Positions 12,421 to 64,000 of a DNA stretch of 64,000 nt are shown one piece after another. The stretch is from Pseudo-nitzschia pungens (taxonomy: Eukaryota; Bacillariophyta; Bacillariophyceae; Bacillariales; Bacillariaceae): assembly GCA_037355855.1 (NCBI GenBank), contig CM074764.1:868001-932000 (forward strand), written 5' to 3'. The notes beneath the pieces are model-generated. The model saw nothing but the letters and a program-made list of their open reading frames with translations, did not search any database and was not told the origin of the DNA. Numbering within the stretch: position 1 is the first letter of the stretch; the number at the start of each line of letters is the position of its first letter. The translations under genes were made by a program, and so were the position numbers.

Positions 12421-13904
12421 ATGAATAAACTCTCGCTCGCCTTGCTATTTTGCATCGCATCGAGCCGATCCCTGGCTTCGGCTCTCTTCCTCAAACACAA
12501 AGGTCCCTTTGGGGATCTCAAGGTAGGCGTCATCCGCCTCGATGGCTGGGGCAACGAGCTGACGACCGGCACTGGCAATTCCACCTACGTCCCCATTCGC
12601 GGCGACGTGGATGACAATCGCAGCTTCGAAAAGAGCAAGTTCAGCGTGGTGGCCACCATCGCCGAGGACTGCACGTGGGAATCCCTCAAGGACCCAACGC
12701 TATGGGATGACAAGAAACATCTTAACAAGATCCGAGACAGCGTGGCCGATGCCTTTCACACTCTCATGAAGAACGACGTGGACGTGATCTTGTCGAACTG
12801 TGGCCTCTTCATGTGGTTGCACTCTAAGGGGATTGCCACGCCGGCCATGGACATGGCGCTCAAAAGGCAGCGGTTTAGGAAGAAGCCGCGCCCAATAGTC
12901 TCCCTCTCGACGCTGACCACCCTCCCGACCAACCTCGCAATGTACGGACTTGGTGACGACCAGCGAGCGGCAATCGCCAACAGTGAACAGAAGGCATCCA
13001 AAGCGGTCATTAGTTGTCTTCACTTCCAACGAAAAGTCCTGTCTCGCCTATACTGAACAAAACTGAACAACTGAAGGGAACCAACATTTTCGTGCACAGC
13101 GATCCGAAGGCGAAGAAGGCCAATGGCGGTATCCTCGTAGTCGGATTGGACAAAGACGACGTCGTCGGGACTGGAAAGGTCAACGGATTCGAGATCGTCA
13201 GCGACGGCACATCAGCCTTCTACGACGTTCTGAATCCCTCAATCAAAAAAGTTGCAAAAGCTGTCAAGAAACAATACCCCAACGTGGCCCTGGGAATTGT
13301 GGAATGCACCGAGGTAGGGGCCTACACGGACACGATTCGCGAAGAACTCGAGGTGCCCGTCCTCGATCCCATCATCATGGCAACCAACCTGATGAACAAG
13401 TTCATCGACCATGATTACCAGCAGCTCAGCCACGCCGAACGCCAGGACTACATCTCGGATGCCCTGTCGATCCCCGTCAATCCTCAAAGATCCTTGTATC
13501 GTTACATTGCCATGATTATATACTATACCGAGAAGAGACTCGAAAAGAAAACCTATCCCTGGCCATTTAGCAAAGCTCAAAAAAAGTACCACGACTTGCT
13601 CGATGGCAGCCTCAAGGGCGAGATCGTGAAGGAAGTGCTGAGGAAGGTTGTGAAGAGAGCAAAAGTCAAGGCGAAGGAAAAAATGATTGCCGATTTGAAG
13701 AGGACGTCCAGGTTCCAAGCAATTCTTTCCATTCTCGACCGCGCGAAAATGGCCTCCAAGATGAAAATGTATGAACGCGTAGAACACCTCATCGACGAGG
13801 AGGCGCCAGAAGTCCTCGAGAAGATCGTGAAGGAAGTGCTGGAGAATAAAGAAGAATTTGAGCTGGAGCGAGAAATCAAGGATAGCATGCTGGAACTGGT
13901 TTGA
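12421..13904 (+). CDS. Asp/Glu-racemase-fold protein with C-terminal helical extension, frame broken at 13012-13066
   Basis: The 5' part runs from ATG 12421 in one frame to about 13012 (198 residues). The 3' part runs in another frame to TGA 13902-13904. Residues 1-21 are a signal peptide ending LASA before LFL, which could also be a plastid-type site. The first part has the strand DVDVILSNCGLFMWL and the second the motif GIVECTEVGAYTDTIREELE followed by VPVLDPI. These match the two catalytic-Cys regions of the Asp/Glu/hydantoin racemase superfamily (one Cys in each half). Between the halves, a short middle-frame segment reads VFTSNEKS, which fits the expected strand, so two single extra bases (near 13012-13015 and 13037-13066) are the simplest repair. 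One missing base is the alternative. The last 140 residues are Lys/Glu-rich helices not found in bacterial racemases. The substrate is unknown. Confidence 0.65.
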
Positions 13905-15334
13905 TTCCATGTCCTTACCCTCTTTAAAAGGAAAAAAAATACCGTGCTACTTTGCGATCCATATAGAAAGCCAAAAACCAAAGAAAGTATCTCGCGTACT
14001 CACTTGTCAACGCCATCTATCACTAATTTGAGCTGCATTGCAACCCAAATCCTCTGCAATAATGTGCTTTGCCATTCACAACGTTACTTCAGTATTTGCG
14101 AAAAAAAAGTGTCATTGATAAGGCTTTAAGAGTACGGCTTTAAGACTATGACTCGTTTCTTCTCGATAAATGATTTCACAGAAACGTAGTTTGGTTTCGG
14201 TTTCTTTTCATCTGACAAATTTACATTTTCTATTGGGGTTGCTTTGCAACTTCGAACAAGCTGTTCGTGATATTATACCGTGACTAGTACTGGATTGTTT
14301 TTGTATAAAGTGGATAGTAAACATTATTTGTTTGGGGCAGTAGTAATTACTCTGAATAAATTCGTTTCTTTCTCTCTTTCTACAAGCATTTCCAAAGACG
14401 GAATCTCTGTTGTTCTTCCTCGTCATCTTTTTTCAATCAATCTGGAGGAAGCCAGCAGAAAACTCTGATTGAACCAGGGGCCTTTGATGAAACCCTGTGA
14501 TCCTCCCACATCAAACTCTCACTGTGTTTGGTATTATTCTAGATTCTAATTTCCTAATAGTTGTTGCTTTTGTAGGTGGAGACACAAGAATCGACTTGCA
14601 CAGTAACAAGAAGGGTTTTCAGCTGGAGTCACCCAGGAACTTACCATCATCACCGTTTGAATTGTATTTCACCTGTCACAATTCATGATGTAGATGTTGT
14701 TATTGCTCATATTGCTACTATTGCCATCACGGGCGCTGCCGTGGCTGCTGCTATGCTACTTTGACTGTTAGACGTCACGCGAGACTTTCTTTAAAAAAAC
14801 CAATGGGTGTTGTTGTTTGTAAAAATTAACCCAAGTGAGGCGAGTTGAAAATTGTAGAGAGAAGAGTCCTCTCGTCTTTCAATAAGGATTGCACCAGCTG
14901 GTGTTCCTCTACTATTTTCTTGTTGCTATCTTAGTTGTGTTTGTTTCCCGAAAAACTTGGTTCTGGTGATGCTGTTTTGTTGAGCATGTTCATATTATTG
15001 TCAATAGTATAGTCATAACTAACCCTGCAAACCTGTACTGATTATGGCCAACCTCAAGCATAGGAGCTAGTTGAAGTACCCTCCATGAATTGATAAGAAT
15101 CTGATTCACCAATGAAAAGAACTACGTAGGATTACAGAATGTGAAATTGGACGAGAGTGCAATGTTGGGCACAACGTTCTAGTAGTTCGAATGGTTTTAC
15201 TGTTATCCGAGATCATCGAAAAGTGTTGTCGTCACTACTTGGTTTAAGTTTTAAAACAGTTGTCAGCCCATCCGAATTGAGTTGAACAAGTAATATAAAC
15301 CATATTCGCGTTGTGGTAGTAACGAAGGTAGAAT
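13905..15334. other. Intergenic region, no protein gene seen
   Basis: AT-rich with no ORF of convincing composition. The last 50 bases upstream of the tRNA halves contain TAATATAAACC near 15290, a possible TATA-like element for RNA polymerase III, and the leader sequence GGTAGAAT discussed with the tRNA. Confidence 0.4.
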
Positions 15335-15411
15335 ATCAGAAGATTCCGGGTTCGATTCCCGGGAGGGTTTGTGACGACCCTTTGGCCCAACGGAAAGGCG
15401 TCTGACTACGA
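15335..15411 (+). tRNA. Candidate circularly permuted tRNA-Arg(ACG)
   Basis: The two halves of a tRNA-Arg are present in reversed order. The 3' half comes first: A38 at 15335, anticodon-stem strand TCAGA 15336-15340, variable region 15341-15345, T arm CCGGG-TTCGATT-CCCGG 15346-15362 and acceptor strand GAGGGTT 15363-15369. After a six-base spacer (15370-15375) comes the 5' half: acceptor GACCCTT 15376-15382, TG, D arm GCCC...GGC, then TCTGA and the loop CTACGA ending at 15411, anticodon ACG at 15408-15410. All seven acceptor pairs form (two are G-U), and the anticodon stem pairs perfectly across the halves. The leader GTAG at 15328-15331 can pair with CTAC of the anticodon loop, as intron bases do in pre-tRNA. 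No ordinary 5' half upstream or 3' half downstream was found. Maturation would need circularisation at the anticodon loop and removal of the spacer. Confidence 0.75.
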
Positions 15412-16176
15412 AAGGTCGACTTTCCGACAGAACGGAACATTTTGCTTCGAAATCATTTCCAACCTGCATTATTTTTTTTGTTCTCCTCAGAATCGATTCT
15501 GGAAAGCGAGATTTTACTGTGCACCGGAACATCGCTACCCACTCGTGCGCCACAGATTGTGCCAAGTAGGATAAGGAGTCAAACTAATGCACTAATTCAA
15601 GACAACCAATCAAAGTGCCAATCCCACTGACCGTCGTCATCACACAACCCTTTTCCTCTCTACAACGGTTACGGTCCCTGTCCTCCCACAGATACTTTAC
15701 TCAGACCGACTGGGGCAGCCTTCATATACCAGCGGTGTGCCATCGCTGTAGCGGGCAAGATCTATTTCAACCAAGGTAGTCACCTTTCGTCCAATCGCTA
15801 GGAGAACGTCCTGTTGTGTTGAAAGCCATTGCTGGTAACAGAGAAAACGAAGTCGACTGCATCTCACACTGCACCGGGCACTGGCACTGAGGAAAACAAC
15901 CGAACAAGAATAGTTCTGCAATGAAAAGCCTTCGAGACGGGACTCTAGGTGAATACCGAGTGGTTGGGCTCCTTCAAATCTGCCTTCTGCTCTGGGAACA
16001 TCCGATCGTACACTATGCAATATTCCTCTTACGTACTGCAACGTTGACAAACCAGCGATTGCGATGGTTAGCATCCGTCTAAAACGCGTTCATTCGGACC
16101 CCTTTAATGTTCCTTTGCGCCATATCAATCGTGAGCGAGCAAGACAAAATTCAGAATCTCATCTTTGTAGCATGTA
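15412..16176. other. Intergenic region with T-run; one weak open frame
   Basis: The bases after 15411 form a hairpin (GAAAG, loop, CTTTC at 15410-15424). T-runs follow at 15440 and 15473-15480 that could end an RNA polymerase III transcript. A minus-strand frame with ATG at 16074 and length 125 codons has some protein-like stretches, but I could not tie it to any family. Confidence 0.4.
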
Positions 16177-16617: not shown

Positions 16618-16663
16618 TGCCTTGACTGTGAATCGAACACAGGACCTTCAGATCGCTAAGTTG

Positions 16664-16696
<33 letters not shown>

Positions 16697-16701
16697 AAGG
16701 C
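16618..16701 (-). tRNA. tRNA-Phe(GAA) with 11-nt intron
   Basis: The minus strand reads acceptor GCCTTGA at 16701 and TCAAGGC at the end, anticodon stem CAGA/TCTG and loop CTGAAG-A. Eleven bases (16654-16664) are inserted between positions 37 and 38, the canonical eukaryotic tRNA intron site. Without them the molecule is a normal 73-nt tRNA-Phe. Confidence 0.93.
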
Positions 16702-51960: not shown

Positions 51961-52044
51961 CTCGCGATAGCTCAGTTGGTAGAGCGGTGGACTGTAGAGG
52001 AAACTGATATCCATCGGTCGCTGGTTCGATTCCGGCTCGCGAGA
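51961..52044 (+). tRNA. tRNA-Tyr(GUA) with 11-nt intron
   Basis: The acceptor CTCGCGA pairs with TCGCGAG (C1-G72 as in eukaryotic tRNA-Tyr). The anticodon stem is GTGGA/TCCAT, loop CTGTAG-A, with 11 intron bases at 51998-52008 between positions 37 and 38. A TTTTT terminator follows at 52046. Confidence 0.95.
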
Positions 52045-61533: not shown

Positions 61534-64000
61534 CTAAAGTCCAGTCTTCTGGGCGGCATATTGCTGTTGATATTGGGTGTACTCCGACTCACTAACACCC
61601 ATTATGATATTTCTAAACTTCCGGAATTGCGATCCCTGCAGTGGCTTGGTGAAGTAATCGGCAATCATGTCCCCGGTGGGGCAATACTCGATCGACACTT
61701 CCCCTTTCTTTACCCGATCGGTAATTAGGAAGTACCTGATATTAATATGTCTTGTCCGCTTGGTGCTGGATGCCTTTCCATTCATTTCCAGTTTCATCGC
61801 GCTCGTGTTATCCTGGTGGAGGATATTCTGCTTGCCGAACGTGCTCGGCTCCATTTCCTTGCCGACCCGGGCTGCGTACCCCTGCCACTCCAGGAAGTAG
61901 TAGCACCATAAATTATATGGCAACGTGTCATCGACGCCCACCAATTCGGCCTCAGTTGAGCTTCTGGTGTTTAGCTTTTGTTTGGTCGACACGGCAATCA
62001 CAGCCCCTTGACCAAACGTCAAGACGCCCCCAGTGTGGCTCTTCATATCGGAATGGACTGCGAAGGACGCATCCACATACCAGTGTGCGGCCCCTGTACT
62101 ATCCCATCCCAAAACCAGTGGTAGGAACACGGTATCCCGCACATAAGCGAGCACTCGCTTGAGTTTCTTCCAATCGTCCATGTCTGGATTAGCCACTCGC
62201 GTGCAGAGAAACGCGATTGCTGTTTGGATGTCCGGTCGCGCCCTTTTACTTGCGAACAGTAGTTGGGCCACGTGCTTGTGGAACGTCTCCGCGTCTCTTG
62301 CTGATAACTTGTCCCCTTCTTGGTTCACCTTGAATAGATGGTCTGACGCTGGGGTTGGTATAATTTGCGTCTCCCGCAGAGTTTCCGGGATCTCCTCGAC
62401 AATGCCCTCCAGATAATCAAACATGCTGAACTTCACCCTTCCGGCTTCGCTGTAGTCAATCGTCATCCCAACGTAATCGTGGACCTTTCCCCGGGTGACT
62501 GTCAGCGGAGACTCGATTCCAAACACCGTGTTTAGATCGTCAAGCACACCGGTCACTACTGCTGGATCGACGTGCGAGATCTTGAGATCGTCGACATGCC
62601 ATACGATGGTACACTGTGCTCCGTTGATGGTCTTGTTTGCCGTACACTTATCGTAGGGATTCAGCTCAAAGCCCCACTTGGACAGCTGTCCTGACAACCG
62701 CTCCCAGAAGAGGAGGGCAGCTCGCAGTGTCCCGTATATGGCCTTGTCCGCTTGGGCGTACAGTCGCTTGCCAAATTTGCCTTCCAGCATGTATTTCTCG
62801 TAGGTGCTGGGATCAATCTTTGCCAGCAGTTCTGCCATTGGTCCATCAAAACGGATGTGCACAATCTCTCCTTCCGGCATTGGGGTCTGCAGAAAAGCCC
62901 CAGGTATGTCGGCCGTTGCAACATCCCTCCCTTCGATGGCGTCAATAAGACAGGTCAACATCAGCCCGTGTAGGGACACGGTGGGGGAGTAGGTGTCTTC
63001 CCTTGATATGAAATCTCGTTGCGTTCTCCCATCAGCACAGCCCCTGGCTTTGATCTTTCCACAGCGCTTGCGCTTCAGGAACATGAGGTATGGGAGGGCT
63101 CGCTTCACCTCCTCTCGAGTCATTTGTTTTATACCGACTGGGTGCACCACTTTTCTGTCGTGTAACTGTTGCAGCTCCGTCAACACCGCCTCCACTCCTG
63201 CTGTTCCGAAGAGTTTGAGCCCTGCCTTGATTCCGTACTGTTTTGTTACCAGTGAGGCATCGATATTGTTGTACGAGGCAATGGCGTTGGAGATGAATAC
63301 AAACTGTTCGTGGTCCTTCTCGATCTTGCTCACAGCTCGCTTGAACCCACCGGTAAAGTGGTCGGTGTGGACCGCGGTGAGGGCTCTGTGATGAACACCA
63401 GACTCGAAACCATCGTCAGCCCCATATTTGTTGTGGCCCCGGACCACTCGTGGGCGTAACACCATTCGATCTGGTGCATCACTGTAGTCCTGGGCGTTGC
63501 TGTCCACCGCTTCGTCCTCGTTGGTACTGTTAGTGTCTTCGCTGTTGATGCTTGTATCGTCGCCGGCGGCCTCGCTGGTGGCATCACCCGGCTCGCCGTT
63601 GTTACGCGACCCATCAGCATTGTCATCGCTAGTGGTCCACCCATCAGCATTGTTGTCTAAATCAATGTGGGACTCGGACGTGCCGTCGCCGACGGCCGGC
63701 TCAACGGACCCGTCATCCGAGCCATCTGTGGTCCCGTGGCTCGCTACTTCTGCCTGGTCATCCTCATCGTTCTCCAGTTCATCCTCGCTAATAGGGTATG
63801 GACCATGGACCACAGGGTCCTCAAGGGGCATCCCCTCACCCGCCGGCTCCATGGCATCGACGTCCCTTGCGATGGGATTGTCGTCCACGGGATTCCCGGC
63901 TGCGCCCTCCTGCGCTTCTGCTTCGAGGTTGTCCAGCTCATCTGGCTCGACGTCGCCAACGTCTTCATTGGTATCGATAGATAGATCATCAGGATGAAAC
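61534..64000 (-). mobile_element. Ty1/copia retrotransposon pol (3' part), continuing past window edge
   Basis: One frame is open from the window edge at 64000 down to the stop at 61534, over 820 codons. It starts inside an acidic linker (Asp/Glu/Ser-rich, after the integrase). Reverse transcriptase follows: RYK-like KIKARGCADGRTQ, DIPGAFLQTPMPEGE, the catalytic VWHVDDLK at about 62606-62583 and a YVGM box. RNase H carries YVDASFAVH, KSHTGGVLTFG, STEAELVGVDD and HINIRYFLI. The Asp and Glu residues of both domains are present and no stop or shift interrupts them, so the copy may be recent. The order (integrase before RT) and motifs are those of copia, not gypsy, elements. Diatom CoDi lineages are the likely relatives. 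Gag, protease and integrase lie beyond the window. Confidence 0.92.

Follow-up and report, generated by a model that had tools for sequence, protein, structure and literature searches.

Sequence comparison indicates that a diatom-like nuclear genome has at least eight dispersed tRNA-Arg(ACG) genes in circularly permuted form (type II, junction 37/38), one of them in the window, a stretch of 64,000 nucleotides, and we put the probability that these genes are functional and are matured through a circular intermediate at about 0.93. The evidence for this reading comes from the conservation of the two gene halves among unrelated flanks, from a helix predicted between leader and anticodon loop, from TATA boxes upstream of the units and from searches for an ordinary gene of the same anticodon.

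The permuted locus in the window

In the window, the 3' half of the gene was found directly upstream of the 5' half on the same strand, as the initial annotation had proposed, and the order of the halves is the same in all eight units. The 5' half kept its assigned limits as positions 1-37 of the tRNA, the position numbers being our assignment from the standard scheme. The 3' half, previously ended at 15369, was extended by one base to 15370, since all eight copies have T there but differ in the four bases that follow, and this T was counted as the discriminator U73; the separation of the halves thus shrinks from six bases to a linker of five. The acceptor, anticodon and T stems of the earlier proposal, including two G-U pairs in the acceptor stem, are common to the eight copies with one exception in the T stem of copy L007, where U-G replaces a C-G pair. 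The A and B boxes stand in reversed order as claimed, with the B box in the upstream 3' half and the A box in the downstream 5' half. The two oddities already remarked upon, the discriminator U73 and the first pair G1-U72, are fixed in 8/8 copies and are unusual. The proposed pairing of the leader GTAG with CTAC of the anticodon loop was likewise borne out, the same bases standing at the same distance in six of the eight copies, the window copy among them.

Table 1. Positions of the parts of the permuted tRNA-Arg(ACG) gene in the window and of ordinary tRNA-Arg(TCG) sequences in the genome
Feature	Position	Strand	Remarks
TATA box TATAA, presumed external Pol III promoter element	15294..15298	+	41 nt upstream of 3' half; TATAW in 7/8 copies
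Leader GTAG, partner of anticodon-loop CUAC (positions 32-35), central helix of splice motif	15328..15331	+	Exact in 6/8 copies; RNAalifold consensus
3' half, tRNA-Arg(ACG) positions 38-73, with B box and discriminator U73	15335..15370	+	Identical in 7/8 copies; one substitution in L007
Linker GTGAC between 3' and 5' acceptor ends	15371..15375	+	Exactly 5 nt in 8/8 copies
5' half, tRNA-Arg(ACG) positions 1-37, with A box and anticodon ACG	15376..15411	+	A20 in window copy; U20 in 6/8 copies, C20 in 1/8
TTTT, presumed Pol III terminator	15440..15443	+	28 nt past 5' half; 3-10 nt past 5' half in other seven copies
tRNA-Arg(TCG) matches	G000:C1:565703, C1:9496171, C5:3963575, C6:908032, C6:4911322, C8:1404258, C11:2342308		Dispersed like the permuted family

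Standard gene finders passed over the locus: ARAGORN in linear mode did not list it as a tRNA in the window, and the Rfam tRNA model at its gathering score listed 11 other tRNAs there and not this one. Applied to the eight units, ARAGORN reported tRNA-Arg(ACG) in every circularised unit and in every joined mature sequence (8/8 each) and in none of the linear ones (0/8). Across the eight copies, conservation ends after A37 and begins at A38, which places the junction at 37/38 as in type II permuted genes. All testable parts of the original proposal of a circularly permuted tRNA-Arg(ACG) with this junction thus held, and we rate it as supported. A chance arrangement was rejected, since seven further full units are present in the genome and the observed leader-loop pairing was reached by 0/20000 random leaders.

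The identity of the tRNA was also considered at position 20. According to Igloi (2022, PMC8975779), nuclear tRNA-Arg of diatoms carries C20 and/or U20 and that of other algae A20, and Table 2 of that paper gives A beside C or U in two species. Of the eight permuted copies, seven have one of the two diatom bases (U in six, C in L006), the window copy being the one with A20, and this fits a diatom nuclear tRNA-Arg.

A dispersed family of permuted units

A search of the 66.9-Mb genome (28 contigs) with 151 bases around the window unit located permuted units in at least eight separate places on six contigs (two each on C5 and C10, one each on C6, C7, C9 and C12). The mature sequences fall into four distinct forms that differ at 2/72 columns; besides position 20, the first T-stem base is C in 7/8 copies and T in L007. 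Mean pairwise identity was 0.99 over the 72 mature bases, 0.31 in the linkers and 0.27 in the leaders (-40 to -9), with a random expectation of about 0.26. The flanks are unrelated, homology stopping within about 20 nt of the unit in 28/28 pairs of 3-kb loci (BLAST, plus strand, E≤0.01), and the same comparison gave two short weak matches elsewhere, of 33 and 42 nt. No stray tRNA halves beyond the unit itself were detected in about 3 kb around each of the eight loci at E up to 0.1. The sequences suggest either that the copies are so old that their flanks and linkers have become random, or that each was inserted on its own, with the halves under selection; with near-identical halves amid near-random linkers and unrelated flanks, they do not resemble decaying remnants. 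At the last position of the linker (15375 in the window) only pyrimidines occur, C in six copies and T in two, the other four bases being variable, and this base may have a role in end processing.

We also built a permuted-tRNA model (R1) from seven training sequences; Glu, Gly and Asp were omitted for their short variable loops and Leu was not aligned. It scored the eight units at 69.6-74.2 bits and other tRNA stretches from 12 sources at no more than 39.9 bits, a match that is partly by construction because the arginine unit belonged to the training set. Scans of viral and of prokaryote contigs, which may omit records of this or a very near genome, gave 0 matches to the permuted unit in each.

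Predicted fold and splice motif

The RNAalifold consensus, computed with no structure supplied, contains the acceptor, D, anticodon and T stems together with the leader-loop helix GUAG:CUAC. The leader GTAG occupies -7 to -4 in 6/8 copies, where the helix has four base pairs; it has three in L006 and two in L008. The pairs C32-G and U33-A form in all eight copies, shifted one base closer in L006 and L008. Contiguous leader-loop pairs total 29 over the family; among 20000 random leader sets matched in composition, the average was 3.7 and the highest value 15. In the alignment, 98.4% of 192 cells were paired under this structure, against 32-54% when it was slid along. The eight-copy alignment holds no compensatory changes in support of the stems and a shuffle control was uninformative, 500/500 shuffles reaching the observed values, both because the halves hardly vary. 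Minimum-energy folding of single sequences returned the full motif in four of the eight copies (L002-L005); the window copy came out without it, its leader and trailer folding otherwise. With a 3' bulge of 4 nt in six copies, the predicted junction motif is of the relaxed hBH kind rather than the strict form, the bulge being one base longer than in the cis-introns of the window.

Two such cis-introns were observed in the window. A tRNA-Phe(GAA) gene at 16618-16701 (minus strand) has a short 37/38 intron and was missed by ARAGORN run without introns, and a presumed tRNA-Tyr(GTA) gene at 51961-52044 (plus strand), also with a short 37/38 intron, was called Ser by ARAGORN without introns and Ile with introns; introns at 37/38 thus occur in this genome. 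By our reading, both have G at -3 opposite C32 and a 3' bulge of 3 nt.

Promoter and terminator

In seven copies a TATAW motif precedes the 3' half by 34-44 nt, L006 being the one without it, while the background in the flanks of the permuted loci is 3.5% of 4060 windows of 45 nt. Among the 11 ordinary tRNA genes of the window, only one, the presumed Tyr gene, has a TATA box within 50 nt upstream (7/8 against 1/11, Fisher 0.0012). Four of these ordinary genes are preceded so closely by another tRNA that it takes up part of the 50 nt examined; without them the comparison is 7/8 against 1/7 (0.010). A TATA box was also present in one of the five ordinary tRNA-Arg(TCG) loci that were read. Downstream, TTTT follows within 20 nt in 7/8 permuted copies and within 40 nt in all eight; it also follows 7/11 ordinary tRNA genes of the window, so the T run is not special and shows only that a terminator is present. 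The 5-nt linkers contain neither a TATA-like element nor a T stretch that would lie between the halves. Judged from these motifs, transcription of the permuted genes seems to depend on a TATA promoter outside the gene.

Search for an ordinary tRNA-Arg(ACG) gene

Sequence and pattern searches found no complete ordinary tRNA-Arg(ACG) gene elsewhere, a full set of which was part of the counter-evidence named by the initial annotation. All 16 matches of the joined mature sequence in the genome are halves inside the eight units, and two anticodon-arm patterns run over the genome found no contiguous tRNA-Arg(ACG). A pattern combining the ACG loop with the B box gave two matches, against one in the control, neither of them a tRNA; a plastid ACG gene, if there is one, also escaped this pattern. 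ARAGORN recognised no tRNA in the ACG-pattern candidates L039, L040, L062, L063, L064 and L065, the last being the same place as L040. The B box used is, by our reading, present in 9/11 ordinary tRNAs of the window, and the ACG searches, in which only the best candidates were scored, would miss a gene that contains an intron or whose B box is atypical.

The same pattern design for TCG yielded eight matches, with none in the control, and seven of the eight are one identical sequence. Five of these seven, obtained as loci, were confirmed by ARAGORN as tRNA-Arg(TCG), the same 72-base gene in each case. Since one design found the TCG genes and no ACG gene, an ordinary ACG gene with the usual B box appears unlikely in this genome. 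By the decoding rules, tRNA-Arg(TCG) could read CGA and CGG, and decoding of CGU and CGC would then depend on the permuted genes. These are probably the main, and possibly the sole, nuclear source of tRNA-Arg(ACG). We go further and consider it likely, with less assurance than for the genes themselves, that the entire nuclear supply of tRNA for CGU and CGC (and CGA) comes from this amplified, TATA-driven permuted family; cleavage and circularisation of the precursor would then be essential for the main arginine codons, and the state might extend to a whole lineage of diatoms, where standard annotation would report the tRNA as missing.

Proposed maturation pathway

From the arrangement of these elements, Pol III would be directed by the upstream TATA box, not by the reversed A and B boxes, and would transcribe each unit from the leader through the trailer to the T run. 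According to the predicted consensus fold, the transcript would form a cloverleaf closed at its acceptor end by the linker, with the open-ended anticodon stem continued by the helix of leader and loop. The tRNA splicing endonuclease would cleave on the 3' side of A37 and on the 5' side of A38; a ligase would join the ends into a circle, from which RNase P and tRNase Z, as in the pathway of other algae, would excise the 5-nt linker before CCA addition. Conversion of A34 to inosine would allow the tRNA to read CGU, CGC and CGA. The permuted RNA thus probably needs a cut, a joining into a circle and a second cut before use in translation.

With respect to the machinery, a splicing-endonuclease domain (tRNA_int_endo) is encoded at C2:1561023-1561238. 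Exon-wise searches of the genome, which do not prove absence, gave no match to the TFIIIC B-block and no ligase for the circularisation step, neither RtcB (control positive in 9/14 genomes) nor the Trl1-type ligase PF09511 (no match in the control genomes either).

Alternative explanations

The units might be remnants of tandem tRNA arrays whose outer halves have decayed, leaving an inactive inner pair of 3' and 5' halves, a possibility that the initial annotation had also raised. Permuted genes have indeed been proposed to originate when a tandem duplication loses its outer halves (Soma 2014, PMC3978253), and the first unit here may have arisen in this way; as an account of the present copies, decay of an array is very unlikely, since there are eight near-identical units with unrelated flanks and no stray halves nearby, and a dead remnant would not keep a constant 5-nt linker and near-identical halves while the linker sequences drift to near randomness. 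The dispersal of the copies and the confinement of their homology to about 77-105 nt would also suit a tRNA-derived, SINE-like mobile element or non-functional retroposed copies of a circular pre-tRNA, and reverse transcription of a circular or permuted pre-tRNA is another proposed origin (PMC3978253). Retroposition could account for the spread of the units but not for their lasting conservation. Against both versions, the TATA box stands at much the same distance in 7/8 copies despite their unrelated flanks, a T run is near in 7/8, every copy keeps at least two leader-loop pairs and the halves are 99% identical; we regard both as very improbable.

It is also conceivable that the circular precursor is itself the functional product and that no tRNA is made from it. 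The fixed length of the linker would agree with a conserved circle, for which we found no direct support, but the linker sequence is nearly free while the stems, the anticodon and 70/72 tRNA positions are fixed, and the genome searches found no other ACG tRNA, so that this alternative is very improbable as well. Functional permuted tRNA-Arg(ACG) genes remain the reading that we adopt.

Other features of the window and the genome

A long frame with an RVT_2 domain at 61534-63888 of the window (minus strand) belongs to a copia-like retrotransposon, and a conserved frame of 296 amino acids at 13014-13901 (plus strand), with no Pfam match, has 12 homologues, which include a Pseudo-nitzschia arenysensis protein (taxid 697910). 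Elsewhere in the genome, the ends of contigs C5 and C7 hold plastid-like sequence and C2 has a dense tRNA cluster at 7.117-7.157 Mb that is perhaps mitochondrial; the organelle-like sequence at contig ends contains repeated tRNAs of identical score and frames for photosystem II reaction-centre proteins. Such sequence near the ends of chromosome-size contigs could reflect either assembly joins or large insertions. Locus L044 (G000:C7:1264433-1265314, minus strand) stands apart from the plastid-like psbA copies; it is an open psbA frame (photosystem II D1) whose N-terminal presequence contains an ASAF-like motif, and it looks like a nuclear-encoded D1 from its sequence. Its N-terminal region has relatives in Pseudo-nitzschia australis, Nitzschia inconspicua and Amphora coffeiformis. 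The homologues of these two proteins, the 296-residue frame and the D1-like one, support a diatom affinity and make a pennate diatom the likely source.

Relation to known permuted tRNA genes

By 2014, 34 permuted tRNA genes had been counted in six unicellular algae and one archaeon (Soma 2014, PMC3978253), the groups in Table 1 of that paper being red algae, green algae, a single nucleomorph and a single archaeon; Auxenochlorella and the nucleomorph of a second chlorarachniophyte, Amorphochlora, were later added in print. Among the papers listed in our literature searches, mostly ones outside subscription, we found no permuted tRNA gene from a diatom or other stramenopile; where "permuted" occurred in the accessible text of stramenopile or organelle papers, it concerned 5S rRNA or stood in reference lists. 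Further literature was compared (PMC8450103, PMC12633428, PMC4090602, PMC8007984, PMC13353863, PMC4494063, PMC4929541, PMC11528492, PMC8707768, PMC8024477, PMC4033280, PMC7194472).

The closest likeness is to the type II genes of Ostreococcus, Micromonas and the Bigelowiella natans nucleomorph (Soma 2014, PMC3978253), which also place the 3' half first, have the junction at 37/38 and a relaxed bulge-helix-bulge, are mostly intronless and have a short linker (5 nt in B. natans, as in the diatom). They differ in isotype or anticodon and in lineage, and some of them have an ambiguous AT-rich region where the diatom genes have a distinct TATA box. The genes in the table of that paper are mostly one per anticodon, in contrast to eight dispersed, near-identical diatom genes of a single anticodon. 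Cyanidioschyzon merolae shares the TATA box within 50 bp upstream, the downstream T run, the reversed A and B boxes and, in some genes, type II; an external TATA promoter has been proposed for its permuted genes, and its TATA boxes also accompany non-permuted tRNA genes (PMC3978253), while most ordinary genes examined in the diatom show none. Its junctions range over types I-IV, and each anticodon has a single gene apart from Gly(CCC), which has two (PMC3978253), whereas the diatom has one type in eight copies.

Ordinary eukaryotic tRNAs with 37/38 introns are cut at the same sites and share the C32-G pair, formed there with the intron and here with the leader; their halves are not in reversed order, and by our reading the pairing G of the window's Phe and presumed Tyr genes is at -3, compared with -4 in 6/8 permuted leaders. 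The ordinary tRNA-Arg(TCG) genes of the same genome likewise specify arginine and are multi-copy and dispersed, but they are contiguous, differ in body sequence and have a TATA box at only 1/5 loci.

The family is a known gene type in a new major lineage, with an unusual amplification to eight copies. If our reading is right, permuted tRNA genes gain a major eukaryotic group, and the failure of linear finders such as ARAGORN and the Rfam tRNA model to report this tRNA would be accounted for. The eight copies are a natural replicate series in which linkers and leaders are free and the splice signals fixed, so that the needs of the splice motif, the promoter switch and the tolerance of the linker become directly testable. 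It would also follow that a permuted gene can be amplified and retained in a genome where it probably provides most or all of a given tRNA.
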